A DNA stretch of 64,000 nt from Alphaproteobacteria bacterium. GTDB lineage: Bacteria; Pseudomonadota; Alphaproteobacteria; Rickettsiales; SXRF01. The translations under genes and the position numbers were made by a program. This document shows positions 42,817 through 60,027 of this stretch, in pieces; within the stretch, counting starts at the first letter, position 1, and each line of letters begins with the position of its first letter. The notes beneath the pieces are model-generated. The model did no database searches, had not been told where the DNA came from, and worked only from the letters and a program-made list of their open reading frames with translations. The stretch spans positions 62,001 through 126,000 of the forward strand of contig JANYES010000018.1 in the NCBI GenBank assembly GCA_025362975.1, read 5' to 3'.

Positions 42817-43884
42817 ATGACGAGTCAGAATTCCAAAACTATCCACCTGCCGTGGCACCAGCGCGAAAGCTTCTGGATGAGCATTTATCCGAAGACGGAA
42901 AGCTTTGCACCGGACGTGCGCGCGTGTCTCGAAGCGGCGGGTTTCATTCATGACGAAGGCTTGACGCGCCAGATCAACGGCGACTGGACGAGCGTGTGGG
43001 CGCAGGTCTACGGCGGGTTGCAGGCAATCGGCATGCTCAATGAAGTCGATATTGCGCTCGTGCCTGATGCGACCGAACCGGCGCTGCGCGCCGAGGCGGA
43101 AGTGCGTAGCTGCGAGGAGATTGAAGCGCTGGCACAGAGCATGTGGCTGGGCGACGCGCTGATTGAAAACCGCCTGATGTGCTATCTGCAACCGGTGCTT
43201 GGCGGTAACGACAAGGTGTTCGGCTACGAGTCGTTCGCGCGCGTGAAGGCCAAAGACGGCAGCATCATCGGCGGCAACAAAATCATTGCGGCAAGCAAGG
43301 TGCTGGGCATTGAATTCATGATCGATCGCTGGCTGCACGTGGAAGCGGTGAAAACCTTCGTCGGCAGCGATTTCAACGGGTTTTTGTTTATCAATTTTTT
43401 CCCGGGCTTCATTCACCGCCCGGCAGTGTATATGGAAGGCTTGTCGGAAACCGTGAAAGGGTACGGGATTGTGGCTAAGCACGTGGTGCTGGATTTCACG
43501 AATTCGGAAACGCCACGCGATATCCGCCATCTCAACAGCGTGTGCGATTACGCGCGTTCGCGCGGGTATTCGATTGCGCTGGACGATATCGCGTCGCTGG
43601 CCAATGCGCGGCGCTTAGTACCGGAAATCAAGCCGGACTTTTTAAAAATCGATATGCAGATCGTGCAGCAGGTGCAGCAGAGCGATAAGCGTGAGCTGGT
43701 GCGGGGCCTGGTGGAAGTAGCGCATCAGGTTGGGTGCTCGGTGATCGCCGAGGGCGTGGAAACGAGCGAGATTCACGAGGAGCTGAAATCGCTCGGCGTC
43801 GATTTATTCCAGGGTTATTTATTCTCCCCTCCGGTGCCGGTGGAAACTGCGCTTGCGCGGAGTGCCGCAACGGGCGCGCAATGA
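42817..43884 (+). CDS. EAL-domain protein (possible cyclic-di-GMP phosphodiesterase or sensor)
   Basis: A 355-residue cytoplasmic protein. The N-terminal 110 residues are of unknown fold. An EAL domain at about 115-350 follows with the motif altered to ESF (GYESFARVK). NFFPGF stands for the usual N-x-SP, LDFTNSE for E-I-T-E, ALDDIASL for the DD pair, and FLKIDMQIV and VIAEGVET are well kept. The Mg-ligand set is partly changed (Glu to Asp in the EITE place), so activity may be weak or lost. Start ATG 42817 is preferred over the upstream TTG at 42766. It overlaps the next gene by 4 nt. Confidence 0.82.
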   Translation: MTSQNSKTIHLPWHQRESFWMSIYPKTESFAPDVRACLEAAGFIHDEGLTRQINGDWTSVWAQVYGGLQAIGMLNEVDIALVPDATEPALRAEAEVRSCEEIEALAQSMWLGDALIENRLMCYLQPVLGGNDKVFGYESFARVKAKDGSIIGGNKIIAASKVLGIEFMIDRWLHVEAVKTFVGSDFNGFLFINFFPGFIHRPAVYMEGLSETVKGYGIVAKHVVLDFTNSETPRDIRHLNSVCDYARSRGYSIALDDIASLANARRLVPEIKPDFLKIDMQIVQQVQQSDKRELVRGLVEVAHQVGCSVIAEGVETSEIHEELKSLGVDLFQGYLFSPPVPVETALARSAATGAQ

Positions 43885-44567
43885 AGCTGCATGTGCTTCA
43901 GCACGTGGCGTTCGAGGGCGCTGCGAACATCCTCAAATGGGCGGAGCTTAAGGGCCACAGCGTGACTACCACGCGATTTTTCGAAATGGGCTGGGAAGTG
44001 CCGCCGGTGGCTGAAGTGGACTGCCTGTTCATCATGGGCGGGCCGATGAGCGTGTATGAAGAAAGCGAGCACGCGTTTTTAATTCCTGAGAAGACGTTTA
44101 TCCGCGCGGTGATTGATGCGGGAAAACCGGTGCTCGGGATTTGCCTCGGCGCGCAGCTTTGCGCGGATGTTCTGGGCGCGAAAGTCTATCCGATGGGCCA
44201 AAAAGAAATCGGGTGGTATCCGGTTTCTAAAGTGGCGCCGCACCCGATATTTTTCGATATGAACGAAGGCCAGCATGTGTTCCACTGGCACGGCGATACG
44301 TTCGATCTGCCGATGGGGTCCATCTTGCTCGCCAGTTCAGCGGTGTGCAAACATCAGGCGTTCATGTGGAAAGAGCAGGTGATGGGGTTGCAGTTCCACA
44401 TGGAGATGACGCCCGACGATATCCAGCTATTGATCGAGAATTGCTTCGAGGATTTGAAAATGCCGGGGCCGCACGTGCAGAAGGACGGCGAGATACAGAA
44501 GCATTCGCAGCATGCGGATATTCTGGCCGGGCTGCTCGATAGCGTGCTTACGCGGTTTGTGAGTTAG
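43881..44567 (+). CDS. Class I glutamine amidotransferase-like protein (GMP synthase glutaminase type)
   Basis: A 228-residue single-domain GATase. Nucleophile Cys is in LGICLGAQLCADVLGAK; the HxE dyad is in FHMEMTPDD, where the family has HPE/HFE, so His-Met-Glu keeps the His and Glu. It resembles stand-alone YfeJ/GuaA-like amidotransferases linked to amine or glutamate conjugation. Its ATG overlaps the EAL stop (ATGA), and its 3' end overlaps by 20 bp the convergent gene ending at 44548. Confidence 0.85.
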   Translation: MKLHVLQHVAFEGAANILKWAELKGHSVTTTRFFEMGWEVPPVAEVDCLFIMGGPMSVYEESEHAFLIPEKTFIRAVIDAGKPVLGICLGAQLCADVLGAKVYPMGQKEIGWYPVSKVAPHPIFFDMNEGQHVFHWHGDTFDLPMGSILLASSAVCKHQAFMWKEQVMGLQFHMEMTPDDIQLLIENCFEDLKMPGPHVQKDGEIQKHSQHADILAGLLDSVLTRFVS

Positions 44568-45639
44568 CGGGCACGTCGAACGCCATCAGGGGAGCGGCGA
44601 GTTTCAGCAGGGCGTTGACCAGCGCATTGCGGTGGTGGAAATACATCCAGTTGTTTTCGAGTTGGCTGCCGAGGCGTAGTTTCGTCTCGTAGCCCGCCTG
44701 TCCGCTTTGGTAGGTGGTGTAGGCTTTATCCAAACAATATTGCAGGTTGGCGATCCAGCTTATGAAGTAGAGATTGTGCTCCTGGCCTTCAAGCTCACGC
44801 ATGCAGAAGAATTTGTCTAGCAGGCGGGAGTGGCCTTCGAGCATGACGTTGCAGGCGATGAGCTTTCCGTTGAGGATATACAGCGAGCAGATGCCGTTGC
44901 GCGATTGCGCGACATTGCGGAAATAATCGCGGGTGAGTTCTTCGAATTGTAAATCGCTGCGGGATTTGGTTTCTAAATACATGGAGTAAATGTCATCCAG
45001 ATACGGCTCGATGTCGCGCGTGTGGGTGATTTCGATGCCAGGATTTTTTTTGATCTTGCGGCGGATGTCCTTACGGGCGTTGGCGCTTAAGGTGGCGATG
45101 TAGTCGTCGATGGTTTTAAAGGTGACGGGCGAAACCGCCGTGGGCATGCCGGCAACGCAGGTGAAGCCGTGCGCGGCGAGGATTTCGTGAGCGATTGTCT
45201 TGTTGGCGTCGCTTACGTCTTTAAAGGCGAGCAGGCCGGTGCGGTGGGCGCGGGCGTCGCGTTTGAAAAAGGCGAGAAGGCCAGCGAACCATGCGCGTTT
45301 CTGGTCGGGCGTGGCGTCGGGGTGGAAGGCGATGAGGCAGGTTTCGGTGGCGAAGGAGCCGATGCAGGCGAGGTTGAGTTTAGCGCGTAAAACGGTGAGG
45401 ATTTTTTTTATCGTGCCGTCGGCGGTGGTGGCGAGATCGTATTTCGTGTAAAAGGCGGGAAAGGCGGCAAGCAACGTGTCGCCTTCGGTGAGGGTGTAAT
45501 AGCAGAAGGTGAAGCCGGGGACGACTGCGCGCTCCACGGCGAGGCAATAATCGTAATCCTCAAGACAATGGGGGAAGCAGCTATTCCATTCTTCGCGCGC
45601 GATAGCGGCGATGGTTTCGACGCGTCGGGCTTCAGCCAT
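44548..45639 (-). CDS. FemAB/GNAT-like acyl or aminoacyl transferase
   Basis: A 363-residue protein (from ATG 45639). The centre (about 175-330) has the BioF2/FemAB-like GNAT layout: KTIDDYIATLSANARKDIRRKIKK, YSMYLETKSRSDLQFEEL, LYILNGKLIACNVMLEG and DKAYTTYQSGQAGYETKLRLG. Such proteins transfer an amino acid or acyl group to an amine, often in peptidoglycan or lipid synthesis. The last gene of a tight operon, it overlaps the hydrolase by 8 nt. Substrate is unknown. Confidence 0.7.
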   Translation of the reverse strand: MAEARRVETIAAIAREEWNSCFPHCLEDYDYCLAVERAVVPGFTFCYYTLTEGDTLLAAFPAFYTKYDLATTADGTIKKILTVLRAKLNLACIGSFATETCLIAFHPDATPDQKRAWFAGLLAFFKRDARAHRTGLLAFKDVSDANKTIAHEILAAHGFTCVAGMPTAVSPVTFKTIDDYIATLSANARKDIRRKIKKNPGIEITHTRDIEPYLDDIYSMYLETKSRSDLQFEELTRDYFRNVAQSRNGICSLYILNGKLIACNVMLEGHSRLLDKFFCMRELEGQEHNLYFISWIANLQYCLDKAYTTYQSGQAGYETKLRLGSQLENNWMYFHHRNALVNALLKLAAPLMAFDVPANSQTA

Positions 45640-46432
45640 GTTGTTTTTCGAAGAAATCGGCGGTGAGGCTAGCCACTTTCTTGTGCTCGCGGTCGACATG
45701 GATCATGTGGTAGCTGTCTTCGAACCAGTGAAGTTCGTGCGGGGCGCCGATATGCTTGTCGATATAGAGGGCGTTTTTCGGATGGCTGAGATCATCTTCG
45801 CGCGCGTGCATGATGACGGCGGGGGTTGTCATCGACGGCAGGGCGGTTTTGAACCAGCGGGAAAGGGCGAGCATTTGTTGCAATGCGCGGACGGGGAATT
45901 CGTCCAGCACGCCTTCGGTGGAAAGTTGCTGCATGGCCTTGCGCAGGCGATCATCCTTGATGCCGATACTTTCGGTTTCACCGAAAGAATAATTGCGGAA
46001 AATAGGTATTTCGGCGAGTGAGAGAGGGGCGAAAGAGAGGATTTTATAGTGCAGGGGCACGTTCCACCCGTTGTAGCGGAAGCAGGGGGAATACAAGGCG
46101 TTTGCGGTGAAGAGGCTGGGTTGTTTTAGCGAAGCGGCCATGCCTAGCTTGCCGCCGACGCAAATACCGGCGGAGTACATGCTATCGACTTTGCCCCGTA
46201 AATCATTGCCTGCGGACAGCACGCTGTCCAGCCAATCCTGCCATTTGGTTTTGATGAGTGTCGCTTCGTCGACGCCATGTCCGGCGAGCAGTGGAGCGTA
46301 GACAGTGTAGCCGCGTTTGACGAGGCCCTTGGCGACCCAGCGCATTTCAGCCGGAACGCCGGTGAGGCCGTGGATGAGCAGGATGCCTTTGCCGTTAGTG
46401 CCTTCGTGGAAGAAACTTAAATCGTCAGCCAT
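45632..46432 (-). CDS. Alpha/beta hydrolase with a cysteine nucleophile
   Basis: A 266-residue hydrolase of the monoacylglycerol lipase/Est30 type, with the oxyanion segment LLIHGLTGVPAEMRW. The nucleophile elbow reads GICVGG, with Cys91 in place of the usual Ser (codon TGC). An acid is available in HAREDDLSHP and the His in DSYHMIHVD. Cys nucleophiles occur in dienelactone hydrolases and in some acyltransferase-like relatives. It overlaps the desaturase gene by 8 nt and the transferase by 8 nt, so it probably acts in the same pathway. Confidence 0.82.
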   Translation of the reverse strand: MADDLSFFHEGTNGKGILLIHGLTGVPAEMRWVAKGLVKRGYTVYAPLLAGHGVDEATLIKTKWQDWLDSVLSAGNDLRGKVDSMYSAGICVGGKLGMAASLKQPSLFTANALYSPCFRYNGWNVPLHYKILSFAPLSLAEIPIFRNYSFGETESIGIKDDRLRKAMQQLSTEGVLDEFPVRALQQMLALSRWFKTALPSMTTPAVIMHAREDDLSHPKNALYIDKHIGAPHELHWFEDSYHMIHVDREHKKVASLTADFFEKQHG

Positions 46433-47282
46433 TGGCTTTGCTGAGGAAACCCAGCGCGTGGCAGGTGTCGATTACGTGCACGCCTTCGGCCTTTTGCTGG
46501 TCGCGGATGGATTCGTGGAAGGTTTTCATTTTCTTCCAGTGCATGCGCGGGCGGAAATGATGTTCGGCGTGGTAACCGTTGTTGAACCAGAGCAGGTTGT
46601 AAACGAAGTTATAGGTGCTGACGCCCCATGCGATGGGTTTGTTGGGGTTGCCGTTATAATGCTCGTAATAGCCGTTGAGGGAGGACAGGCAGTTGCCGAG
46701 GAAGTTAAAGATCACCATGATGAACAGGGCTTTGATGTTGATGAAGGTCATGATAAGCAGCATGAGAGCTAAGCAGGCCAGTTCGATGATGCCGAAATGC
46801 GCGTTGGCGGGGGATTGCTTGTGCAGGGCTTTGTAGAGCGCTTTGATGTCGTCGCGGAAAAAGCTTTTGAAGGTGTAGGACCAGACGTCCTCGGGCTTGC
46901 CGTCGTGCCCGTGGCGGTAGATGGAGAGCCAGTCGATAGTTTCGCCTTTGTCGTTGGGCAGGTCGGAGTTGCCGGAATGGTGGCGATTGTGAACCCATGT
47001 GTAGAAGGCTTGGGAGAAGCCGACCGCGAGGGATTCAACGAGGCTGAAGGCGCGGTTTAAATAGTCGTTGTTGAAATACGGATTATGCAGGAAATTGTGC
47101 GACACGCCGTTGATGTTCCATGAGATGGATACAGCATAAAGGCACAGCAGCGGCAGCGATACCAGTACCGGTAGCACCGGCAGGTTGATGAACAGCCACC
47201 ACACGAAAATGAGATGCGCGACGCCTGCGAGGACGGGCACGATATCCCACGTGGAATGGGCGAAGAGTTTCTGGGCGGTCAT
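46425..47282 (-). CDS. Membrane fatty acid desaturase-like di-iron enzyme
   Basis: A 285-residue integral membrane protein with the three histidine boxes of the desaturase/hydroxylase superfamily: HNFLH, HNRHH and HAEHH, set between hydrophobic pairs of helices. It likely introduces a double bond or hydroxyl into an acyl chain using a di-iron centre and O2. It overlaps the ureohydrolase-like gene upstream by 4 nt and the hydrolase downstream by 8 nt. Its acyl substrate is unknown; the operon suggests a special lipid, not bulk membrane desaturation. Confidence 0.85.
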   Translation of the reverse strand: MTAQKLFAHSTWDIVPVLAGVAHLIFVWWLFINLPVLPVLVSLPLLCLYAVSISWNINGVSHNFLHNPYFNNDYLNRAFSLVESLAVGFSQAFYTWVHNRHHSGNSDLPNDKGETIDWLSIYRHGHDGKPEDVWSYTFKSFFRDDIKALYKALHKQSPANAHFGIIELACLALMLLIMTFINIKALFIMVIFNFLGNCLSSLNGYYEHYNGNPNKPIAWGVSTYNFVYNLLWFNNGYHAEHHFRPRMHWKKMKTFHESIRDQQKAEGVHVIDTCHALGFLSKANG

Positions 47283-48193
47283 GCGGCCTCCTTGATGCAG
47301 TTTAGGATGGCGAGGTTGGTTTTCTGGTTGATGTCGGATGCGAGCGCCAGTTTACGGCCCAGGCGCGGCTGGTCAATCATCGATTCTAATTTTTTGAGGG
47401 CGACTTGGTGTTTTAAACCGGAATAGAGTTTGGGGCTGTAGTCGCCGTTGACGTCGATGCCGATGACGTTGTGGCGACTCATGAGGAAGCGCAGGAGGTG
47501 CAGCAAATAGGGCAGGTGCATTTTTCCCTGATCCCAGTTAGTGATGGCGTCGGCGTGGCTGAGGACGTCCTTGTCGATGGTGATGTAGATGTTGCGGGTC
47601 TTGACCAGCGTTCGCAGTTGCTGGCAGAAGGCGTCCTCGCCGAGTTTGCCCATATCGAAGCGCTTGAAGCGGTGGGAGGGGGATTGCCACGGCAGCATGT
47701 GGATGCGGCCGAGCTTGAGGGCGGCGAGGTTGGCGCCTTTGAACTGCGGGCGCACTAAATCGCGGCTGCACACGCCGATGGTGATGACGCGTTCGACCTG
47801 CTGGATGTAAAGCGCGCGGTTGACCCATGAGCCGCAATGCATGCCGCCGGAGAACTTCACCCAGTCGGGGTGGTTGTCGAAATGGATGACGGTGAGCGGC
47901 GAGGGGTCGGATTCGGCGACGAGGTCGATCAGCAGCGCCGTCACGTGGTGGAAATCGCCGGAGCCCATGAAGGTGACGACGGGGGCATGGGTGTTGTCGA
48001 CTGTGGTGTCGCGGGCGAGGTAGGTTTGTAAGTGCTGGCGCAGGAGTTTCAGGTTCTTGTCCTTACCCCAGAGGCGCACGAGCGCACCTTCGCGGCGGGC
48101 GTCGATCTGCGTGGCTTTCAGGTCGTTGCAGACGGCCATGAATTCCGGTTGCGACTTAAACGCTTCATCGAGGTGGAGGACATTCAGCAACAT
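47279..48193 (-). CDS. Ureohydrolase (arginase/agmatinase) fold protein
   Basis: A 304-residue protein with the manganese-site motifs of the arginase family in altered form. GSGDFHHV stands in place of GGDHS, HFDNHPDW supplies the DxHxD set, and ITIDKDVLS supplies the DxD pair. Typical members cleave guanidino groups (arginine, agmatine) or related amides, and some act as formiminoglutamases or deacetylase-like enzymes. Since it sits in a lipid-type operon, an N-substituted amine substrate is possible but unproven. It overlaps the desaturase gene by 4 nt. Confidence 0.8.
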   Translation of the reverse strand: MLLNVLHLDEAFKSQPEFMAVCNDLKATQIDARREGALVRLWGKDKNLKLLRQHLQTYLARDTTVDNTHAPVVTFMGSGDFHHVTALLIDLVAESDPSPLTVIHFDNHPDWVKFSGGMHCGSWVNRALYIQQVERVITIGVCSRDLVRPQFKGANLAALKLGRIHMLPWQSPSHRFKRFDMGKLGEDAFCQQLRTLVKTRNIYITIDKDVLSHADAITNWDQGKMHLPYLLHLLRFLMSRHNVIGIDVNGDYSPKLYSGLKHQVALKKLESMIDQPRLGRKLALASDINQKTNLAILNCIKEAA

Positions 48194-48199
48194 GGTTTT

Positions 48200-48718
48200 T
48201 TATCCGAAGAACGCCTGCGCGCTGAAGATGCAACCGAGCGTCGCCAGGATGAAAGTGAGGATCAGGAAATGCTTGCGGCGCGTAATGGCCGATATGGCGG
48301 TGATGGCGATGGAAACCTGAAACGCGGTGATGGCGCGGGCGAGGACTTCATGCTGGTGCATGAAATAGCGCGAGGCGGTTTCTTCCTGAGTGGCTTCGGT
48401 TTTGATTTCTTCCTGTTCTTTTTTATAGCGGTCTAGCTTGTCCTGAAGGGCGGGGGTTGCGGTGCCTTCTAAGCGCGATTCAATGATGGCGGCTTTGATG
48501 CCTTTGGCCTGGTAATAGCCCCAATGGTCGGAGGCGTGCATCTGTTCGAGCATGGCTTCGTTGGCGTAGTGCGCGGCGTACAAGCCGGTGATGGCGCCGC
48601 CGACCGCGAGGAAGGCGGAGATCAGCGCGCAATACAGCAGCCAACGTTCGCCGCTGTGTTCGGCGTGATGGTGGATTTCTTCCATCTGGGTTTCAGTGGA
48701 GACTTCGATTTCTTCCAT
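48200..48718 (-). CDS. DUF4337-like membrane protein
   Basis: A 172-residue protein with a hydrophilic N-terminus, one membrane segment at about 28-48 (LLYCALISAFLAVGGAITGLYAA), a charged helical loop of about 70 residues and two more hydrophobic segments at the C-terminus. The HYANEAMLEQMHASDHWGYYQAKGIK stretch matches the DUF4337 family pattern as I know it. Function is unknown. It is the first gene after the aminotransferase, with a palindromic repeat between, and ends 6 bp before the ureohydrolase-like gene. Confidence 0.78.
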   Translation of the reverse strand: MEEIEVSTETQMEEIHHHAEHSGERWLLYCALISAFLAVGGAITGLYAAHYANEAMLEQMHASDHWGYYQAKGIKAAIIESRLEGTATPALQDKLDRYKKEQEEIKTEATQEETASRYFMHQHEVLARAITAFQVSIAITAISAITRRKHFLILTFILATLGCIFSAQAFFG

Positions 48719-48729
48719 AACGATTCCTT

Positions 48730-48838
48730 GTCATTCTGGCGTAGGCGGGGATCTAATCCTAGGCGCGTCTGCGCCGGAAAGAATTATTTTCCTCGCATCC
48801 GCGAGTAGTATTGGATCCACGCCTTCGCGGGGATGACG
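48730..48838. repeat. Palindromic intergenic repeat, copy D
   Basis: A 109-bp copy in the operon between the aminotransferase and the DUF4337-like gene. Inverted ends GTCATTCTGGCGTAGGCGGGG / CCACGCCTTCGCGGGGATGAC flank the inner GGCGCGTCTGCGCC and CTCGCATCCGCGAG palindromes. Confidence 0.85.
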
Positions 48839-48846
48839 GTATTAAA

Positions 48847-50289
48847 TTACTGCTTGCAGCGGCGGATAAGCTGGTCGATGAGGTTGAGGCCCATGTCGAT
48901 TTCTTCGTAGGAAATCATCAGGCTCGGGGCGAAGGTAATCACGTTTTTGTAATAGCCGCCGACGTCGAGCACGAGGCCGTATTTCTTGCCTTTGTAGTCG
49001 AGATCGCCCTTCATGGCTTCGTCGCACATGCGGTCCAAGAGGGCCTTGTCCGGGGTGAAGCCGTCTTCGCCGCAGATTTCAGCGCGAAGTGCTAAGCCGA
49101 GGCCGTCGACATCGCCGATGACTTTGTGGCGTTTTTGCAGGTCTTGCAGGCCTTCGAGGAAGTATTTGCCTTTGGCCATGACCATTTCTTCGAAGTTGCC
49201 TTCGTTGAAAATGCGCATGGTTTCCAGCCCCGCAGCGGTGCCGATGGGGTTGGAGGCGAAGGTGGAGTGGGTGCTGCCCGGCGGGAAGATGGTCGGGTTG
49301 ATCATATCTTCTTTAGCCCAGACGCCCGAGAGCGGGTTCATGCCGTTGGTCAGCGCCTTGCCGAAGACGAGAACGTCGGGTTTCACGTTGAAATGTTCGA
49401 TGGAGAACAGCTTGCCGGTGCGGTAGAAGCCCATCTGGATTTCGTCGACGACCATGAGGACGCCGTATTTATCGAGAACTTTTTTGAGTTCCGAGAAATA
49501 GTTCATCGGCGGGATGACGTAGCCGCCGGTGCCTTGGAGGGGTTCGATGTAAAAGGCGGCGTATTCGCATTTGCCGGCTTTGGGATCCCAGACGCCGTAG
49601 TATTCGGTTTCGAACAGGCGGGCGAATTTTTTAACGCATTCATGGCCGTATTCTTCTTTGGTCATACCTTTGGGGCCGCGGAAGAGGTATGGGAATTCGA
49701 TGAACTGCGCGCGGTCGCCGAAATGGCCGTAACGGCGGCGATAGCGATAGGATGAGGTGATGGAGGATGCGCCGAGGGTGCGGCCGTGATAGCCGCCTTC
49801 GAAGGCGAACATCAGCGATTTGCCGTTAGAATAGTTGCGCACGAGTTTGAGCGAATCTTCAACGGCCTGCGCGCCGCCGACGTTGAAATGAATGCGGCCT
49901 TTGGTGCCGAATTTCTTTTCCATGTGCTGGGCCATCATCACCGCGAGTTCGATTTTTTCGCGGTGCAAGTATTGCGAAGCGACCTGCGGAAGCTTGTCCA
50001 TCTGCTTTTTGATGGCGTCGTTGATGCGCTGGTTGGCGTAGCCGAGGTTGACGGCGGAGTACCACATCTGGAGATCAAGGTAAGGCACTTCGTCCTTGTC
50101 GAACATGAAGGATCCTTCGCAGCGCTCGAAAATTTTCGGTTGTTCGAGATAATGCACGGTGTCGCCGAAGGAACAGTATTTCTTTTCGAGTTCGAGCAAC
50201 TCGGTTTCGTCGGCACTCATGACCGGTATGTGGGAGGCGACCGGGGTTTCTTTTTCGATGGTAAGCACGGGCATGGTATTATTACGCAT
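48847..50289 (-). CDS. Class III PLP aminotransferase
   Basis: A 480-residue aminotransferase of the class III (ornithine/aspartate aminotransferase-family) type. It has YHGRTLGASSIT, the PLP contact VVDEIQMGFYRTGKLFSIEH and the Schiff-base lysine in VFGKALTNGMNPLSG. Substrates in this class are omega-amino acids, polyamines or keto acids. Its start ATG 50289 overlaps the HAD phosphatase stop by 8 nt. The repeat copy D separates it from the rest of the operon. The pathway is not known. Confidence 0.88.
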   Translation of the reverse strand: MRNNTMPVLTIEKETPVASHIPVMSADETELLELEKKYCSFGDTVHYLEQPKIFERCEGSFMFDKDEVPYLDLQMWYSAVNLGYANQRINDAIKKQMDKLPQVASQYLHREKIELAVMMAQHMEKKFGTKGRIHFNVGGAQAVEDSLKLVRNYSNGKSLMFAFEGGYHGRTLGASSITSSYRYRRRYGHFGDRAQFIEFPYLFRGPKGMTKEEYGHECVKKFARLFETEYYGVWDPKAGKCEYAAFYIEPLQGTGGYVIPPMNYFSELKKVLDKYGVLMVVDEIQMGFYRTGKLFSIEHFNVKPDVLVFGKALTNGMNPLSGVWAKEDMINPTIFPPGSTHSTFASNPIGTAAGLETMRIFNEGNFEEMVMAKGKYFLEGLQDLQKRHKVIGDVDGLGLALRAEICGEDGFTPDKALLDRMCDEAMKGDLDYKGKKYGLVLDVGGYYKNVITFAPSLMISYEEIDMGLNLIDQLIRRCKQ

Positions 50290-50986
50290 AATGTTGTTCC
50301 TCGGTGAATGTTGGGCCTTCCAGATCGAGCTGGGTAAGCTGCTTTTCGAGCATGGTCGAAGCCTGGGCGAAAGTGGTGAAAGACTGGTGCGGCAGATCCT
50401 GTTGCTGGCAGTAGGTCAGCAAGGAATCTTTGGCGAGAACGTAATCAGCTTCTTCGGCGCTGACGCAGAAATCGGAACGGCCGTCGCCGATGTAGAATAT
50501 TTTGCTGGCGTTCGCCGCTTCGCGCACGGTGCGTGAGATGGCGCATTTGCAGGTCGATTGCTGCGAGCTGCAACCGGCGGAAGCGAAGGGAGAGGTGAGC
50601 TGCCAGCGGTCGTCTTGCGTGTGGGCAAGGTGGCTGGCGATGACGGTGAGGTGCGACAGGCCTTCGCGTTTTAAGATGTGGCGGATGACGTAGTCGAGGC
50701 CGTCGGACAGGATGATCAGCGGCACGTCGTTATGGACGCAGAACTGGGCAAAGGAACGGAAATGCGCGTCGATGGTGATGCTGTCGGCGAGGTCGTCGAC
50801 CTGCGCGGGAGTGGCGCGGATGAGGTCGACCTGTTGTTGCATGCAGGCGCGCGAGCCGATATGGCCGTTTTTCCATTCGTCTTCGATGTCGAGCCATGCC
50901 GGGAGGGCATATTTTTCGAGTAATTTGTCGGTGGCGTCTTCAGTGGTGATGGTGCGGTCAAAGTCACACAAAACAGCCCAGCTCAT
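50282..50986 (-). CDS. HAD-IB phosphatase, MtnX-like
   Basis: A 234-residue phosphatase of the HAD superfamily with motif I (CDFDRTIT), motif II (LIILSDGLD) and motif IV (GDGRSDFCVS). A CSSQQSTCKC cysteine group in the place of the MtnX family CxxCK segment points to that branch (phosphatases of methionine salvage and sugar or amine phosphates). ATG 50986 with GAGG 6 nt upstream is chosen over the GTG at 50998. It starts the operon running to 44548. Confidence 0.82.
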   Translation of the reverse strand: MSWAVLCDFDRTITTEDATDKLLEKYALPAWLDIEDEWKNGHIGSRACMQQQVDLIRATPAQVDDLADSITIDAHFRSFAQFCVHNDVPLIILSDGLDYVIRHILKREGLSHLTVIASHLAHTQDDRWQLTSPFASAGCSSQQSTCKCAISRTVREAANASKIFYIGDGRSDFCVSAEEADYVLAKDSLLTYCQQQDLPHQSFTTFAQASTMLEKQLTQLDLEGPTFTEEQHYA

Positions 50987-51076
50987 TGATTTCCTCACCT
51001 TATTGATTTAGTTGCATCGTTTCTACAGGTTGAAACTGATGCCAATATGATGGCGGGGCAAAAACAGGAGGGTATT

Positions 51077-52471
51077 TCAGTTGTACGATGGGAAACGGAT
51101 AAGTACTCGCAGCCCTTTACCATTTTCCGGCGTTTCGATGTCGATGGTGGCGGCCAGCAGTTCGGCGATCTGGCTCGCAATGGCAAGGCCCAAGCCGCTT
51201 CCGGGCTGTATGGAACCGGAAATCCGGTAAAAGCGGTCGAACACCCGTGTGCGTTCCGCTTCGGGAATGCCTTCGCCGCTGTCTGTGATCGAAATCAGGA
51301 CATGTGACGTTTCCTGCGTCAGTGAGATATCTATGTCACCGCCGCGGGGGGTGTATTTGATGGCGTTGTCGATAATGGTGCCGAAGAAGGTGCGCAGCAA
51401 ATCCGGCTGGGCAAGCACGCTCAGGCCGTCCTCGGACTGGAAATTCAGGCGCAAATCCTTGTCGACGATCCGGGTGGCTACCATGCCTAGCGCCTCCTGC
51501 ATGACGAGGCTCACAACCACGTGGCCCAGCACGATTTTCTGGTTGGAAACGCGCGACATTAACAGCAATTGATCGACCAGTTTGGCGGTGCGGTCCACGC
51601 TTGCGAGCAATTCAGTGAGCAGCGATTCGCAGGACGGTTCGCGCACGGATTTGCTGAGCAGCTGCGCTTGCAGTTTCAGGGCGGATAGCGGGGTGCGCAG
51701 CTCGTGGGCGGCGTGGTCGATGAATTCGCGCTCGTGGCCGAGCGCGCCTTCGAGTTTGGACAGCAAGGTATTGATGGAATCGGCCAGAGGTTTCAACTCT
51801 TTAGGCAAATCGCCGGATTCGAGGTAGGAAAAATCGGCGGCCGAGCGGGTAGCTAGTTTGCCGGCAAGGCGGGTCAGGCCTTTGAGGCCGAAGCCGATGC
51901 CTATGGAAAAAATAATGCCCAGCAACGGCAGCGCCACCAGCAGCGGCACGATGATGTCGAGCATGATGTCGCGCTGCATCAGCTCGCGGTTGCGCAGGTT
52001 TTCGAAGGTGGTGACGATGAGGTCATTGGTATTGTCATGGATGGAAAACGCCCGCCATGTGTCTTTGCCGACAACAAGGTTGTTAAAGCCGTGCGGCATT
52101 ATCTCCATCGGGAAAATATCGGCGTTGTCGGAGTGCATTACCAGCTTACCTTTGTACCAGACGCGGAAAGCCCGCCACTGGGCGTAGTCCAGCATGGAGC
52201 TTTCTTCGAAACGTTCAAGCAGCTGGGAGGTATGCTCGACGTCAAAGGTTTCGATTTCGAAGGCGGACATGCGGGCGTCATTGGAATCCTCCTCGACGAT
52301 TTCCCACAGGATGGTGGCTTCGGTGATGAGCTGGGCGTCGTAATCCTCGGAGATGTTGATGTTGGCGCTGTGCAGGCCGAGGACGCCCACGATAATCATG
52401 GTGATGATGTTGAGGCCCGAGACGCACAGGAACAGGCGCCATGTGAGGGACATGGGTTTGCGCTGTGTCAT
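51077..52471 (-). CDS. OmpR-type sensor histidine kinase (PmrB/QseC-like)
   Basis: A 464-residue kinase: a first membrane helix at about 8-30, a periplasmic domain of about 130 residues, a second helix at about 160-182, a HAMP-like region, then HisKA with the H box HAAHELRTPLSALKLQ and HATPase motifs DNAIKYTPRGG, DSGEGI and GSGLGLAI. Its partner is the response regulator at 52608, which is separated from it by repeat copy E. The nearby arn-like genes make a PmrAB-like envelope-sensing role likely but unproven. Confidence 0.9.
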   Translation of the reverse strand: MTQRKPMSLTWRLFLCVSGLNIITMIIVGVLGLHSANINISEDYDAQLITEATILWEIVEEDSNDARMSAFEIETFDVEHTSQLLERFEESSMLDYAQWRAFRVWYKGKLVMHSDNADIFPMEIMPHGFNNLVVGKDTWRAFSIHDNTNDLIVTTFENLRNRELMQRDIMLDIIVPLLVALPLLGIIFSIGIGFGLKGLTRLAGKLATRSAADFSYLESGDLPKELKPLADSINTLLSKLEGALGHEREFIDHAAHELRTPLSALKLQAQLLSKSVREPSCESLLTELLASVDRTAKLVDQLLLMSRVSNQKIVLGHVVVSLVMQEALGMVATRIVDKDLRLNFQSEDGLSVLAQPDLLRTFFGTIIDNAIKYTPRGGDIDISLTQETSHVLISITDSGEGIPEAERTRVFDRFYRISGSIQPGSGLGLAIASQIAELLAATIDIETPENGKGLRVLIRFPSYN

Positions 52472-52480
52472 GAGCAACTG

Positions 52481-52593
52481 CCGTCATACCCGCGTAGGCG
52501 GGTATCCAATGCGGAGCGCGTCCGCGCGGGAGAGAGCTGCTTACCCACGCTACCGCGAGGTGGATTGGATACCCGCCCACGCGGGTATGACGG
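52481..52593. repeat. Palindromic intergenic repeat, copy E
   Basis: A 113-bp, near-perfect copy between the response regulator and sensor kinase genes. The ends CCGTCATACCCGCGTAGGCG and CGCCCACGCGGGTATGACGG flank the two inner palindromes (GCGGAGCGCGTCCGC and TACCGCGAGGTGG-type). Confidence 0.88.
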
Positions 52594-52607
52594 GGAAAAA
52601 ATGCTAC

Positions 52608-53264
52608 TCATGACCTAACCATATACCCCACCCCGCGCAAAGTGTGGATAAATTCTTTGCCGATTTTTTTACGTAAATTGTAGATGGTGACTTCCACCGT
52701 ATTGCTATCGACTTCTTCGTTCCAGCCATACAGCGAATCTTCGATTTCGGCTTTGCTGACGATCTTGTTCATGCGTTCCATCAGCAGGCTGCACACACGC
52801 AATTCCTTGGCGGTGAGCAGCAGCGTTTCGCCGTTTTTCTGCAGCGTGCGCGAGGTGGTATTGAGTTCGATGTCGCCGGTGCGCAGGGTGGAATCGGCGC
52901 GGTCTTGCGCGCGGCGGGTGAGCGAGCGGATGCGCGCGAGCAGCTCTTCGTAGTCGAAGGGTTTGGTGAGGTAATCGTCAGCGCCCGAGTCGAGGCCTTT
53001 TACTTTGTAATCGAGCGCATCCATCGCGGTGAGCATCAGCACGGGGAGTTTATTGTTGGCGGTGCGCAGTTTTTTGACGACCTCCATGCCCGAAAGCTTC
53101 GGCAGGTTGATGTCGAGCAGCATGAGGTCGAATTTGCTGGTGTCGGTGGCCAGTAGCGCGGCTTCGCCGTCCATCACCCATTCAACCGTATGGCCGGACT
53201 GCTCAAGCCCGAGCTTAAGCGAATTTCCGAGCATGGTGTCATCTTCTACGAGGAGCAGGCGCAT
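52608..53264 (-). CDS. OmpR/PhoB-family response regulator
   Basis: A 218-residue regulator. A receiver (1-115) has the acidic pocket (VEDD), phospho-Asp in LLDINLPKLSG and the Lys in TKPFDYEE. A winged-helix DNA-binding domain (125-218) follows with TAKELRVCSLLMER and VDSNTVEVTIYNLRKKIG. It is paired with the sensor kinase at 51077. The arn-like genes end 51 bp upstream on the same strand, so it may be in one unit with them. Confidence 0.95.
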   Translation of the reverse strand: MRLLLVEDDTMLGNSLKLGLEQSGHTVEWVMDGEAALLATDTSKFDLMLLDINLPKLSGMEVVKKLRTANNKLPVLMLTAMDALDYKVKGLDSGADDYLTKPFDYEELLARIRSLTRRAQDRADSTLRTGDIELNTTSRTLQKNGETLLLTAKELRVCSLLMERMNKIVSKAEIEDSLYGWNEEVDSNTVEVTIYNLRKKIGKEFIHTLRGVGYMVRS

Positions 53265-53315: not shown

Positions 53316-54386
53316 TTAAAGGGAGACAGGGGTTGGGTGGTAAAGCGGTTTTTCAAGGAAATCAACGGCAATTTTGCTCTTTTTGAGATAGTAGGAGGTG
53401 GTTTTGTAGATGGCGTCGTGCATGGAGGTGGTGGGTTTCCAGCCTAAGATGCGTTCGGCTTTTTCGACGCTGGGCACGCGGTTTTCGATGTCCTGATAAC
53501 CGGCGCCATAATATTCCTGCCCGCCGATGGCTTGAATTTTCACTTGGCTGCGGATGTCGGAATAGCCTTCGAATTCGGCTACAGCGTCCAGCATCATGTC
53601 GGCGAGCTGGGCGATGGAGGCTTCGTTGCCGGGATGGCCGATGTTAAAAATTTCGCCGTCGGCGCAGCCGTTTTTATTTTCAAGGATGCGCATGAGCGCC
53701 GTGATGGCGTCGTCGATATAAAGGAAGCAGCGTTTCTGCTGGCCGCCGTCGATGAGGGTCAGGTCTTTTTTGTGCAGGATGTTGCTGAGGAACTTGGTGA
53801 CCACGCGGTTTTGCTTGCCGGGAACCCAGACGTTGTCAAGGCCGGGGCCGAACCAGTTGAAGGGGCGGAACAGCGTGAATTGCAGGTTCTCGTGCTTGCC
53901 GTAGGCGTAGATGACGCGATCCATCATCTGCTTGGAGCAGGAGTAAATCCAGCGCTCACGCGAAATCGGGCCGGTGACGAGGTTGGAGGTTTCTTCGTCG
54001 TAAGGCGCGTCGGGGCTCATGCCGTAAACTTCGGAGGTGGACGGGAAGATGAGGCGCTTGTTATGCTTCACGCACATGCGCACGATGTCGAGATTGGCTT
54101 CGAAGTCGAGTTCAAACACGGAAAGCGGGTTCTCCACATAGGTCGCCGGGTTGGCGATGGCGGCAAAGGGGAGCACCACGTCGCAGTCTTTCACGCGTTC
54201 TTCAATCCAGACTTTATTTTCGCGCAAGTCGCCTTCGAAGAAATGGAAGCGCGGATTGCCGAGCAAATCTTCGAGCTTGTCGGAGCCGAGGTCGAGCGCA
54301 TGGATGTGCCAGTCGGTGGTGGCGAGGATGTGGGCCGAGAAGTTGCTGCCGATGAAGCCGTTAGCGCCGATGAGGAGGATGTTCAT
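53316..54386 (-). CDS. ArnA C-terminal-like UDP-glucuronate decarboxylase/NAD-dependent epimerase
   Basis: A 356-residue short-chain dehydrogenase-type enzyme. The Rossmann motif is LIGANGFIGSN. TSEVYG, the YSCSKQMMDRVIYAYG catalytic Tyr-Lys segment and the FRPFNWFGPGLD stretch are those of ArnA's C-terminal domain, which oxidises and decarboxylates UDP-glucuronate to a UDP-4-keto-pentose. The ArnA formyltransferase domain is absent. Next to the ArnB-like gene, it would provide the keto sugar for 4-amino-arabinose or a related sugar. Confidence 0.87.
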   Translation of the reverse strand: MNILLIGANGFIGSNFSAHILATTDWHIHALDLGSDKLEDLLGNPRFHFFEGDLRENKVWIEERVKDCDVVLPFAAIANPATYVENPLSVFELDFEANLDIVRMCVKHNKRLIFPSTSEVYGMSPDAPYDEETSNLVTGPISRERWIYSCSKQMMDRVIYAYGKHENLQFTLFRPFNWFGPGLDNVWVPGKQNRVVTKFLSNILHKKDLTLIDGGQQKRCFLYIDDAITALMRILENKNGCADGEIFNIGHPGNEASIAQLADMMLDAVAEFEGYSDIRSQVKIQAIGGQEYYGAGYQDIENRVPSVEKAERILGWKPTTSMHDAIYKTTSYYLKKSKIAVDFLEKPLYHPTPVSL

Positions 54387-54403
54387 GGTATGTCCTTGAT
54401 TTA

Positions 54404-54435
54404 CCCGTCATTCCCGCGCAGGCGGGAATGACGGG
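54404..54435. repeat. Palindromic repeat, terminal hairpin only (copy F)
   Basis: CCCGTCATTCCCGCG and CGGGAATGACGGG form one perfect hairpin made of the joined ends of the element, with the interior missing. It lies in the 68-bp gap between the ArnB-like and ArnA-like genes. Confidence 0.75.
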
Positions 54436-54454
54436 GTGTATTTGGTGGTTAGTA

Positions 54455-55609
54455 CTAGGCTTTCTTGAATAGTTTTTCCAGCGTTTTGATGACGCGGTTT
54501 TGTTCGGCCTCGGTCATGGTGGGAAATAGCGGGAGGCTCACGATATGGTTGCCTGCGGCCAGAGAATTCATGAAATCAGTGGGTTGCCAGCCGTATTCGT
54601 TGGCATACCACGAGAAGGTGTGGGTGGATTGGTAATGCAGACCGATGCCGATATTTTCCGCCTTCATGGCGTTGATGAAGCCGTCGCGGTCGAAGGGGCA
54701 GTCGGGGGTGAGGCGCGGGGTGAAGAGGTGCCATGCGGGGCGGTGGCTGTAAAGCGGGGCTTGGGGGAGGATGAATTCTTTCCATCCGGCGAAGGCGGCT
54801 AAGTAGTTCTGGACGAGTTCGGCGCGGCGTTTGATGAAACCGTCCAGCTCGGGGAGCTGGTGGATGCCCAGCGCGGCTTGAATGTCCATCATGTTGTATT
54901 TGAAGCCGGGGTAGGCGATGTCGTATTGCTGGCTGCCGCCTTTGGCGAAGCGGTTGAAGGCGTTGCGGTCGATGCCGTGGAAGCGCAGGCGCTCGATTTT
55001 GTTGATGATGTCGGCGTCGTCGGTGATGACGGCGCCGCCTTCGCCGGTGGTCATGTTTTTGTTGGGGTGGAAGGACATGACCTGGATGTCGCCGAAGGAG
55101 CCGAGTTTTTTGCCGTTATATTCGGCGCCGATGGCATGGGCGCAGTCTTCGATAACCCTTAGGCTGTGCTTCTTTGCGATGGCGTAAAGCGGGTCGAGGT
55201 CGACAGGCAGGCCCGCATAGTGGACGGGCATGATGGCGCGGGTGCGCGGGGTGATGGCGGCTTCAAGCTGGGCGATGTCCATGTTTAGCGTTTGCGGGAC
55301 GATGTCAACCAGCACCGGCGTGCCACCGGCGAGTACGATGGTGTTGAGGGTGGCGGCAAAGGTGAGCGGGGTGGTGATGACTTCGTCGCCTTCTTCCAAC
55401 TCAAGCGCGAGCAGCGCTAAGTGTAAACCGGCAGTGGCTGATGTCAGCGCAAGGGCGCGTCGCCCGCCGTGGTATTCGGTGAGCATGTCTTCGAATTTCT
55501 GCACGCGGGGACCGGTGGTAATCCAGCCGGAACGCAAGGTGGCTACGACTTCTTCGATGGCGGCTTCGCTGATGGCGGGGCGGGCGAAGGGGAGGAAGGG
55601 TTCGGTCAT
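54455..55609 (-). CDS. DegT/ArnB-like sugar aminotransferase
   Basis: A 384-residue PLP enzyme of the DegT/DnrJ/EryC1/StrS family. Early LRSGWITTGPRVQKFE, PVHYAGLPVDLDPL, the cofactor lysine in SFHPNKNMTTGEGG and a C-terminal HIVSLPLFPTMTEAEQ match ArnB, which aminates UDP-4-keto-pentose to UDP-4-amino-4-deoxy-L-arabinose. It overlaps the GT39 gene upstream by 4 nt. The ArnA-like gene follows after hairpin repeat F. Confidence 0.88.
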   Translation of the reverse strand: MTEPFLPFARPAISEAAIEEVVATLRSGWITTGPRVQKFEDMLTEYHGGRRALALTSATAGLHLALLALELEEGDEVITTPLTFAATLNTIVLAGGTPVLVDIVPQTLNMDIAQLEAAITPRTRAIMPVHYAGLPVDLDPLYAIAKKHSLRVIEDCAHAIGAEYNGKKLGSFGDIQVMSFHPNKNMTTGEGGAVITDDADIINKIERLRFHGIDRNAFNRFAKGGSQQYDIAYPGFKYNMMDIQAALGIHQLPELDGFIKRRAELVQNYLAAFAGWKEFILPQAPLYSHRPAWHLFTPRLTPDCPFDRDGFINAMKAENIGIGLHYQSTHTFSWYANEYGWQPTDFMNSLAAGNHIVSLPLFPTMTEAEQNRVIKTLEKLFKKA

Positions 55610-57246
55610 GGTTTAATCCTTTGCAGCAGCAGCGTCTTGCCATAGGTGGCGATGGGTTGGAGGTGGCACTCTTCGGGGTCGGGCAGGGTCCGGGCGGTGT
55701 CTTCACGCACGAAGACGTAGACATGGTCGATCTCGTCGGCGCAGCGTTTCCAGAATTCGTCGGTGGTGATCATGCGGTGGTGGGTTTCGGGGTAGTGTTC
55801 GGTGCCGTAGGTTAGTTCGCCGGTCCAGCCTGCGACGGTGATGTTGCGGTCGAGATAGACCGGTAGATCCTGCCAGTAGGAGCCGTAGGCGACGACGAAA
55901 TCGCCGGCTTCGAGCTGCGGGCGCAGCATGTCGGCCAGCGGGCGGATGGTGGCGGTGTCGAGCGCGGCGGTGAGGTAGTTGGCGGTCAGGCCCGTGGTGA
56001 TGCCGAGGCCCATGAGCGAAATGATGAGGCGCTTAGGCGAAGAGCGGACTATGGAAATGGCGACCCACAGCACTGCGAGGATAAGCGGGTAGAGCGCTAC
56101 CATCGGGATGTGCATGGTGACGGCGCTTATTTTCTGGCCGAGTTTTCCGGGCATGCCGGGGAGGCATTCGATGGCGAAGATGGCGGCGCTCCAGAGGATG
56201 ACGGATAAAAGCGCGTCGACGCGCAGCGACTTGACCGGCTTGGTTTTATCCCAGAACAGGGCCAGCTTGTCGCCGAGCAGCATGGCCAGCGGCGGGAAGA
56301 TGGGGAAAATGTAGGGGACAAGTTTGGAATGCGAGCTGGAGAAGAAAATCAGCGGCAGGGCAATCCATAACAGCAAGAAAAGCTGTGTGGGATTTTTGCG
56401 CGACATGCGGCGCAGCGCGCCGGGGAGTAAACCGACCCACGGTAGTAATCCCGCGAGCGTTACGGCGATGAAGAACCACCACGGCGCGGAGCGCTTGTGC
56501 TCGTCGGTCATGTAGCGGTTGAAATGCTCGTGGATGAAGTAGAAGTTGAGGAAATCCGGGTGGGCACGGGCCATCAGGAGGTGCCACGGGGCGGCGATGA
56601 GCAGGAAGATGAGCGTGCCTTTGGCCAGCTCGACATTTTTAAGGAGACGCCAGTTGTGCGTGAGCGCCATCCAGATGCCGATCACCATGCCGGGGACGAC
56701 GATGCCGATCAGACCCTTGGTCATCATGGCGAGCGCGGACGCGGCGTACATCAGCAGGTAGAATTTGCGGTTGCCGGTGTGCATTCCGGCGAGGAAACAT
56801 GACAGCGTCAGGGTGATGAACAGGCTCACGGGGACGTCGAGCGTGGCGACGCGGCTTAAGCCGTAGCCCAAGAGCGATGTGGCGAGGACGGCGCTCGCGA
56901 GCAAGCCGCTGGTGCGGGAAAACAATAGCCGAGCGGTGGCGTAGGTGGTGAGGCACACGAGGGTGGAGCACAAGGCAGTGGCGAACCGCCCGGCAAATTC
57001 GCCCATGCCGAAGAGGCCCATGACGGACGCCTGCATCCAGTAAAACAGCGGCGGTTTTTCGAAATAGGGGACGGAGTTGATGCGCGGAGTGAGCCAGTCA
57101 TGGGTGTCGAGCATCTGGCGGGGGAGTTCGATGTAGCGGGCTTCGCTGGGGGTTAGATACGGGCGCGCGCCAAGGCCGACGCAGAAGAAAATGCCGATGG
57201 CGAGGAACAGGAGCAGCAGGTCGCTGCGATAGGATTTACTGGTCAT
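55606..57246 (-). CDS. ArnT-like GT39 membrane glycosyltransferase (1)
   Basis: A 546-residue polytopic membrane protein of the dolichyl-phosphate-mannose/ArnT class. The first periplasmic loop holds the catalytic acidic pattern (LTPSEARYIELPRQM), then TPRINSVPYFEKPPLFYW; about twelve helices and a C-terminal periplasmic domain follow. ArnT moves 4-amino-4-deoxy-arabinose from undecaprenyl phosphate to lipid A. It overlaps the second GT39 gene by 11 nt and arnB-like by 4 nt. Confidence 0.87.
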   Translation of the reverse strand: MTSKSYRSDLLLLFLAIGIFFCVGLGARPYLTPSEARYIELPRQMLDTHDWLTPRINSVPYFEKPPLFYWMQASVMGLFGMGEFAGRFATALCSTLVCLTTYATARLLFSRTSGLLASAVLATSLLGYGLSRVATLDVPVSLFITLTLSCFLAGMHTGNRKFYLLMYAASALAMMTKGLIGIVVPGMVIGIWMALTHNWRLLKNVELAKGTLIFLLIAAPWHLLMARAHPDFLNFYFIHEHFNRYMTDEHKRSAPWWFFIAVTLAGLLPWVGLLPGALRRMSRKNPTQLFLLLWIALPLIFFSSSHSKLVPYIFPIFPPLAMLLGDKLALFWDKTKPVKSLRVDALLSVILWSAAIFAIECLPGMPGKLGQKISAVTMHIPMVALYPLILAVLWVAISIVRSSPKRLIISLMGLGITTGLTANYLTAALDTATIRPLADMLRPQLEAGDFVVAYGSYWQDLPVYLDRNITVAGWTGELTYGTEHYPETHHRMITTDEFWKRCADEIDHVYVFVREDTARTLPDPEECHLQPIATYGKTLLLQRIKP

Positions 57247-59871: not shown

Positions 59872-60005
59872 CCGTCATTCCCGCGAAGGTGGACGATTCT
59901 ATATCGAGGCGAAGCCAAATCCAATGCGAAGGCGCATCTGCGCGGGAAGAGTTCTTGCCCTCGCCACCGCGAGGTGGATTGAGTCCCCGCCTTCGCGGGA
60001 ATGAC
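59872..60005. repeat. Palindromic intergenic repeat, copy G
   Basis: A 134-bp copy with a longer left arm than the others. Ends CCGTCATTCCCGCGAAGGTGG and CCGCCTTCGCGGGAATGAC, inner GGCGCATCTGCGC and CTCGCCACCGCGAGG palindromes. A separate half-terminus (GTCATTCCGGC) lies 30 bp upstream at about 59843. The rest of the 59800-60027 gap shows nothing else. Confidence 0.85.
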
Positions 60006-60027
60006 GAAAAAGTAGGCAGGGGTTCGC

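Follow-up and report, generated by a model that had tools for sequence, protein, structure and literature searches.

A seven-gene cassette adjoins a two-component pair

We analyzed a 64,000-nucleotide (nt) stretch of DNA from an alphaproteobacterium of the order Rickettsiales (hereafter the window; contig JANYES010000018.1, positions 62,001 to 126,000, of GenBank assembly GCA_025362975.1) along with the rest of its genome (3.26 Mb in 28 contigs). The subject is a cassette of minus-strand genes at 44548-50986, which a sequence-only reading had described as an undescribed operon. All seven genes were confirmed by the open reading frame (ORF) list and by their Pfam families (Table 1); that description stood as to the genes themselves, but it had overlooked a further part of the unit, the response regulator-histidine kinase (RR-HK) pair immediately upstream. 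The gene overlaps of 4 to 8 nt were confirmed from the sequence at four of the six junctions: 8 nt for HAD/class III, for desaturase/hydrolase, and for hydrolase/FemAB (assuming that FemAB starts at ATG 45639), and 4 nt for arginase-like/desaturase. At the two remaining junctions, 6 nt separate DUF4337 from the arginase-like gene and 128 nt separate the class III gene from DUF4337.

Table 1. Genes and features of the cassette and its two-component pair (positions of the window)
Feature	Position	Strand	Remarks
FemAB-like/tandem-GNAT-fold transferase	44548..45639	-	363 aa from ATG 45639; PF04339, 1.9e-9
Alpha/beta-hydrolase, monoacylglycerol-lipase-like, Cys nucleophile	45632..46432	-	PF12146 (Hydrolase_4), 2e-16
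Membrane fatty-acid-desaturase-family protein, accessory	46425..47282	-	PF00487 (FA_desaturase), 7.6e-24
Arginase-superfamily hydrolase	47279..48193	-	PF00491 (Arginase), 4e-10, above cut-off
DUF4337 protein, accessory	48200..48718	-	PF14235, 2.4e-28
Class III fold pyridoxal phosphate (PLP) enzyme, best-conserved member	48847..50289	-	PF00202 (Aminotran_3), 4.3e-75
MtnX-like HAD-IB phosphatase	50282..50986	-	ATG 50986; Pfam HAD, 3.1e-13; TIGR01489, 103.1 bits, above the cut-off of 81.55
Operator-like direct repeat TCATATTGGCATCAGTTT, 11-nt period	51033..51050	-	Between HK and HAD
Sensor histidine kinase, QseC/PmrB-like	51077..52477	-	205.6 bits with NCBIfam QseC and 145.5 bits with PmrB; neither reaches its cut-off
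Response regulator, assigned by eye to the OmpR family	52608..53264	-	ORF list; 52-86% identity to the RR of relatives

The cassette is conserved in order and its core co-occurs genome-wide

When 90 genomes were searched with the arginase-like protein as the query, nine matched, including the genome of the window itself. The order HAD, class III, arginase-like, desaturase, hydrolase, and FemAB is kept in all eight other relatives as far as their contigs extend, and the class III protein is 71-85% identical among them. One of these, L017, is a 3,980-bp contig that begins within HAD and ends in the desaturase, which is encoded there on the other strand. The two-component pair adjoins HAD in L011, L012, L013, L015 (divergently), L016, and L018, and the end of a kinase gene lies at the contig edge of L014. 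These data indicated, with high confidence, that the seven genes are part of a larger conserved system that includes the two-component pair. In L012, L013, L014, L016, and L018, the arginase-like gene and the desaturase are separated by a gap of 322-358 nt that encodes a small membrane protein ORF, and in L016 a second desaturase-family gene (L016:5093-5974) immediately follows FemAB. Several loci are not distinct: L012 and L019 come from the same contig, L110 overlaps L137, L105 overlaps the window, and the alphaproteobacterial metagenome-assembled genome G014 is a family member whose cassette proteins are identical to those of L019.

The gene block was also found to recur in many bacteria of soils and plants. 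An alignment scan with the class III protein gave at least 585 relatives, and the best 80 of these, a set leaning to close relatives, were analyzed. At 70-77% identity, they came from Pseudomonas, Rhizobium, Agrobacterium, Phyllobacterium, Caulobacter, Nevskia, Luteibacter, and others. Their neighborhoods held HAD in 76, the hydrolase in 72, EamA in 56, FemAB in 52, and the desaturase in 23 of the 80 loci, as labeled by BLAST (30% identity plus a length limit in the locus tallies), so that some hydrolases, kinases, and ABC proteins may be paralogues. A class III protein of 55% identity, L159, sits in a locus without HAD, hydrolase, FemAB, or EamA. Six loci were examined among 34 plasmid records with a class III match: Rhizobium and Sinorhizobium plasmids carry the whole set plus a desaturase and MipA, two Agrobacterium plasmids carry the set without the desaturase, a Xanthomonas sacchari plasmid has a version with KAS, acyl carrier protein (ACP), and a DegT aminotransferase, and a Bartonella plasmid has only the class III gene, a GNAT, and a protein aligning with the arginase-like family.

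An even sample of 397 Pseudomonadota genomes was used to ask which genes travel together, with cut-offs of E ≤ 1e-150 for the class III family and E ≤ 1e-20 for the arginase-like family, whose counts come solely from the scan of these genomes; additional ureohydrolase labels in one neighborhood tally stem from a shadow-frame reference. A9 and A10 derive from members of the cassette and thus favor such members. The class III family occurred in 28 genomes. All 20 genomes with the arginase-like family lie within those 28, as do 25 of the 27 with the FemAB family (the two outside are G228 and G479). Chance values for co-occurrence with the class III family (hypergeometric) were 1.3e-27 for the arginase-like and 4.1e-34 for the FemAB family with genomes treated as independent and relatedness ignored; at the genus level, with relatedness likewise ignored, the value for the arginase-like family was 3.7e-18. 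In 13 of the 20 genomes the FemAB and arginase-like genes adjoin on one strand, 16-98 nt apart. In G470 some 150 kb separate the pair from the class III gene, in G286 the pair is on another contig, and the best FemAB is on a different contig from the class III gene in G150, G153, G173, G193, and G240; therefore, the association is not only positional. Independent occurrence of the genes, which would have spoken against the sequence-only reading, was thus not the pattern for the core, and its view of the genes as one functional unit is supported by both the conserved order and the genome-wide co-occurrence.

The same reading had also suggested a search for a conserved neighborhood of desaturase, ureohydrolase, and Cys-hydrolase. 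Such a neighborhood was seen in the gene order in close relatives, but the desaturase family was found in only three of the 397 genomes (our own, G465, and G143, of which G143 lacks the class III family), and the desaturase was rejected as a core part. DUF4337 was present in three of the nine close loci only (the window, L011, and L014). Given these distributions, both proteins are accessories and not core parts as had been proposed. Around the 27 sampled class III loci other than our own, we counted HAD in 24, the hydrolase in 23, EamA in 17, FemAB in 16, DegT in 10, KAS and HlyD in 7 each, ACP and MipA in 6 each, TolC in 3, CMAS in 2, and the desaturase in 1. The acyl genes (desaturase, KAS, ACP, and CMAS) are interchangeable between cassettes. 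In a Burkholderiales locus, a cyanophycin-synthetase-like gene (L027:13371-15992; Mur ligase plus ATP-grasp) stands beside an adjoining FemAB/arginase-like pair.

Predicted folds of the FemAB-like and arginase-like proteins

A search of the PDB with a FemAB sequence profile gave no match at E ≤ 1. The predicted model (pLDDT 91.6) has the FemX-type tandem GNAT fold (6snr; Z 21.5, root mean square deviation [rmsd] 4.8, 301 aligned), and its nearest folds were Sbb17 (Z 22.3), Sba18 (22.0), FemX (21.5), FemA (20.9), and MprF (20.0). The aminoacyl-tRNA-dependent transferases FemX and Sbb17/Sba18 are thus its best fold matches, and tRNA-dependent enzymes rank first in both fold comparisons, but FemX, FemA, and Sbb17/Sba18 share only 10-16% sequence identity with the cassette protein. 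The amino-acyl transfer suggested by the sequence-only reading appears strengthened by these matches of a predicted structure.

The model also matches the MprF catalytic domain (7f47). MprF is reported to make and translocate aminoacyl lipids (PMC8131360), and lpiA with acvB is reported to form an operon of an aminoacyl-lipid synthase and a hydrolase (PMC13197417). The cassette differs from this MprF/LpiA arrangement with its partner hydrolase AcvB/VirJ in several respects: its flippase-like proteins are separate, it has the class III, HAD, and arginase-like enzymes in addition, and its hydrolase is a lipase-like S33 type by Pfam. Pfam matches of the cassette FemAB were limited to PF04339 and PF13480, leaving out the MprF-type LPG_synthase_C (PF09924), a family with no match in our genome and with matches in 7 of 14 control genomes.

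The model of the arginase-like protein (pLDDT 89.8) has the arginase fold (best Z 24.2, rmsd 2.7, 243 aligned). H82, H83, D106, H108, D110, D207, and D209 are invariant in two overlapping sets of sequences (n = 19 and n = 18), H119 is present in 19/19 and 16/18, and position 251 is Asp or Glu throughout both. With this fold and the binuclear metal ligands, the protein belongs to the arginase superfamily. Position 251 aligns, albeit weakly, with the Glu of a plant arginase, and we read it from this alignment as the probable Glu277 position. An arginase-fold enzyme acting on bound arginine is known in OspR, a peptide arginase that converts arginine to ornithine (PMC10028609, in excerpt). OspR shares the fold but has Ser264 in place of Glu277, in contrast to the acidic position 251 of the cassette protein; furthermore, it belongs to PF12640, a family without a match in the cassette protein, for which Pfam gives only PF00491 at E ≤ 0.01.

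Conserved residues in the remaining enzymes

Catalytic residues were inspected in alignments of 118 class III, 110 HAD, 104 hydrolase, and 33 desaturase sequences, which include redundant rows and from which rows under length or identity limits had been removed. The class III protein has the fold of its family (PF00202), and its PLP lysine, K311, is present in 118/118 sequences, together with D282, R182, R184, R186, T254, and T452. Thr254 corresponds to Asp, Glu, Glu, Asp, and Ala in the five closest solved chains (acidic in 4/5). Among solved structures, the nearest is an alanine/serine racemase; a racemase was considered and rejected, since Asp occupies the position of the family's invariant Thr254 in each of the two racemases within the five aligned chains. 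As for HAD, the DxDxT motif is present in 109/110 sequences (one gap), and GDGxSD and the other phosphatase motifs are kept. The family also has cysteines that are unusual for a phosphatase and possibly metal-binding (C133 in 108/110, C140 and C142 in 110/110).

The profile of the alpha/beta-hydrolase matches thermostable monoacylglycerol lipases. Its Cys91 lies within the nucleophile elbow GICVGG, and Cys is found in 8/8 of the closest set, which confirms the Cys-hydrolase of the sequence-only reading; across the 104 wider homologues, the nucleophile is Cys in 32 and, more commonly, Ser in 72. The two forms differ in their surroundings: 26 of 32 Cys-form hydrolases are near a desaturase, versus 66 of 72 Ser-form enzymes that are not. 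In the desaturase, all eight His residues of the HX3H, HX2HH, and HX2HH boxes are kept in 33/33 sequences; its sequence profile had no match in the PDB at E ≤ 1.

Regulation and export

The pattern of the operator-like repeat has one exact match in the window and one in the genome, at the HK/HAD site, and of 26 loci that have a related RR, 15 show an exact match close to the start of HAD (L012 and L019 among these being the same contig). Compared with base shuffles, an 11-nt period was rare (≤0.018) in 5 of 11 regions.

Five EamA proteins from cassettes were scanned (that of L012, two of the Pseudomonas locus L057, and two of L099). Two passed the Pfam EamA cut-off, and the best NCBIfam model was ArnE for L012 and the first of L099 and ArnF for the others. 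Our genome has an ArnE/ArnF-like pair on contig C24 (L163:4921-5764), far from the cassette; the ArnE model scores 43.7, below its cut-off, and the two proteins are 42-44% (ArnE-like) and 37-41% (ArnF-like) identical to the best-matching cassette EamA proteins. This pair adjoins a putative NAD-dependent epimerase (label by eye). MipA proteins lie near other cassettes, e.g., those of Rhizobium and Sinorhizobium, and MipA/MipB are polymyxin sensors in Pseudomonas aeruginosa (PMC10936184, in excerpt).

The system thus resembles the arn modification of lipid A with L-Ara4N in its ArnE/F-like proteins, its two-component control, and the arn-type genes beside it. It is unlike arn in that none of the seven genes is for a sugar-nucleotide enzyme and that the cassette EamA proteins score below the ArnE/F cut-offs.

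Proposed pathway and alternatives

Starting from the conserved unit, the co-occurrence, the predicted folds, the kept catalytic residues, the flippase-like pair, and the operator-like repeat, we infer a pathway with the following signal, substrates, order of steps, amino acid, and product. The RR-HK pair would sense envelope stress and switch on the operon via the repeat that precedes HAD. The class III enzyme and HAD would make an amine-bearing acceptor, most simply from a phosphorylated carbonyl compound that is later dephosphorylated by HAD. An acyl chain would be made or altered by exchangeable modules, the desaturase here and KAS with ACP elsewhere, and the alpha/beta-hydrolase would move or trim an ester or acyl group. 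FemAB could then use aminoacyl-tRNA to attach an amino acid to the amine, the arginase-like enzyme could act on the attached residue, most simply converting arginyl to ornithyl, and the ArnE/ArnF-like pair encoded elsewhere in the genome would flip the lipid outward. Taken together, these steps describe a cassette under two-component control for the synthesis, aminoacylation, and export of a positively charged envelope lipid, a reading that we hold tentatively, at rather less than an even chance. The amine-containing lipid-like product suggested earlier remains the best reading; we have moderate confidence in a lipid and low to moderate confidence in the tRNA and ornithine steps. In its most specific form, FemAB would place arginine from Arg-tRNA on the lipid amine and the arginase-like enzyme would make ornithyl of it. 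Ornithine is not a tRNA-charged amino acid, so that in such a route it would be installed after transfer. This ornithine-lipid route is somewhat unlikely; if true, it would do for lipids what peptide arginases do for peptides and would yield a new type of cationic lipid that is common across Pseudomonadota.

Several observations weigh against the envelope-lipid pathway. The class III family has Thr452 where 5/5 closest solved relatives have Arg, and thus lacks the C-terminal Arg of class III transaminases. T452 and T254 are at what we take to be the carboxylate-binding sites of these transaminases. Judged by these residues, the enzyme may be no ordinary transaminase, and amination is doubtful since the Arg of the solved relatives is missing; of the amination claimed earlier, the fold and the PLP lysine stand, but the step is uncertain with Thr in place of both Arg and the acidic residue. 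No literature on the class III Arg/Glu pair was found in a search of PubMed Central. The lead of the tRNA-dependent enzymes in the FemAB fold comparison is small (Z 18.3-22.3 versus 16.6-18.4 for CoA-dependent tandem GNATs and N-myristoyltransferases), and FemAB is absent nearby in 11, and EamA in 10, of the 27 sampled loci. All five EamA proteins fall below the curated cut-offs (ArnE, ≤57.6 versus 92; ArnF, ≤46.9 versus 99), both proteins of the Pseudomonas locus match ArnF best, and MipA had no match in our genome. As for the operator, the 11-nt period in the window is no better than in shuffles (0.082), and 13 sites with one mismatch occur elsewhere in the genome versus 3 for the reversed control.

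The runner-up FemAB folds would suit an enzyme dependent on acyl-CoA or acyl-ACP. FemAB would then act as an N-acyltransferase, with the arginase-like protein hydrolyzing a free guanidino or acyl-polyamine compound, and an amino-acid lipid or N-acyl polyamine would form without the use of tRNA; agmatinases and guanidinases do match the arginase-like model, and KAS and ACP lie near some FemAB genes. With tRNA-dependent enzymes ahead in both fold comparisons, we consider this unlikely; the FemAB/arginase-like pairs far from the class III gene (G470 and G286) would fit either explanation. We are equally doubtful of a secreted small molecule, an antimetabolite or signal of the serinol or vinylglycine type exported by EamA, ABC, and TolC proteins, in which the class III enzyme and HAD would form a small amine and the desaturase would act on a small molecule like RtxC for rhizobitoxine. 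In that pathway, which combines an aminotransferase, dephosphorylation, and a desaturase, RtxA aminates dihydroxyacetone phosphate and RtxC is the desaturase (PMC3222319, in excerpt), and TolC, ABC, and HlyD genes adjoin some cassettes. However, one half of the bifunctional RtxA is sulfhydrylase-like, no partner resembling that half was found among the annotated neighbors of the six plasmid loci, and the excerpt mentions neither FemAB nor an arginase-like enzyme for rhizobitoxine. The desaturase is rare, and the KAS and ACP modules and ArnE/F-like proteins point to a lipid. Rhizobitoxine or serinol as the pathway itself was rejected and is retained as an analogy only. That the genes are unrelated and merely sit together is very improbable: DUF4337 and the desaturase do come and go, and the class III gene is in some genomes not linked to the FemAB and arginase-like genes, but the conserved order and the co-occurrence even when unlinked, as seen in the two family scans, already contradict it.

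In keeping with the earlier remark that no described pathway has this set, none matching it, and no account of the class III family or cassette, was found among the papers listed by our searches of PubMed Central. This concerns a family present in 28/397 genomes and in named Pseudomonas, Rhizobium, Agrobacterium, and Caulobacter strains. If the envelope-lipid pathway holds, it would be a further way of adding positive charge to bacterial membranes, outside MprF and arn, and would offer a direct biochemical test for the FemAB and arginase-like families.

Neighboring genes and minor observations

Beyond the RR-HK pair, arn-type genes adjoin the cassette at 53316-58864. They include an ArnA-like dehydrogenase without the formyltransferase domain, above the cut-off of NF008872, a DegT-type aminotransferase (ArnB label by eye), and two consecutive ArnT-type glycosyltransferase-like ORFs (by eye). 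The 128-nt spacer between the class III and DUF4337 genes (48719-48846) resembles a small dispersed repeat. No repeats of ≥60 nt were found in the window, and ORF remnants with similar R-x-R-G-D/AGTQ letters lie near 52500-52620 and 59900-60060. At the other end of the cassette, a glutamine-amidotransferase gene (43881-44567) is convergent with FemAB, with a 20-nt overlap at the 3′ end of the latter.

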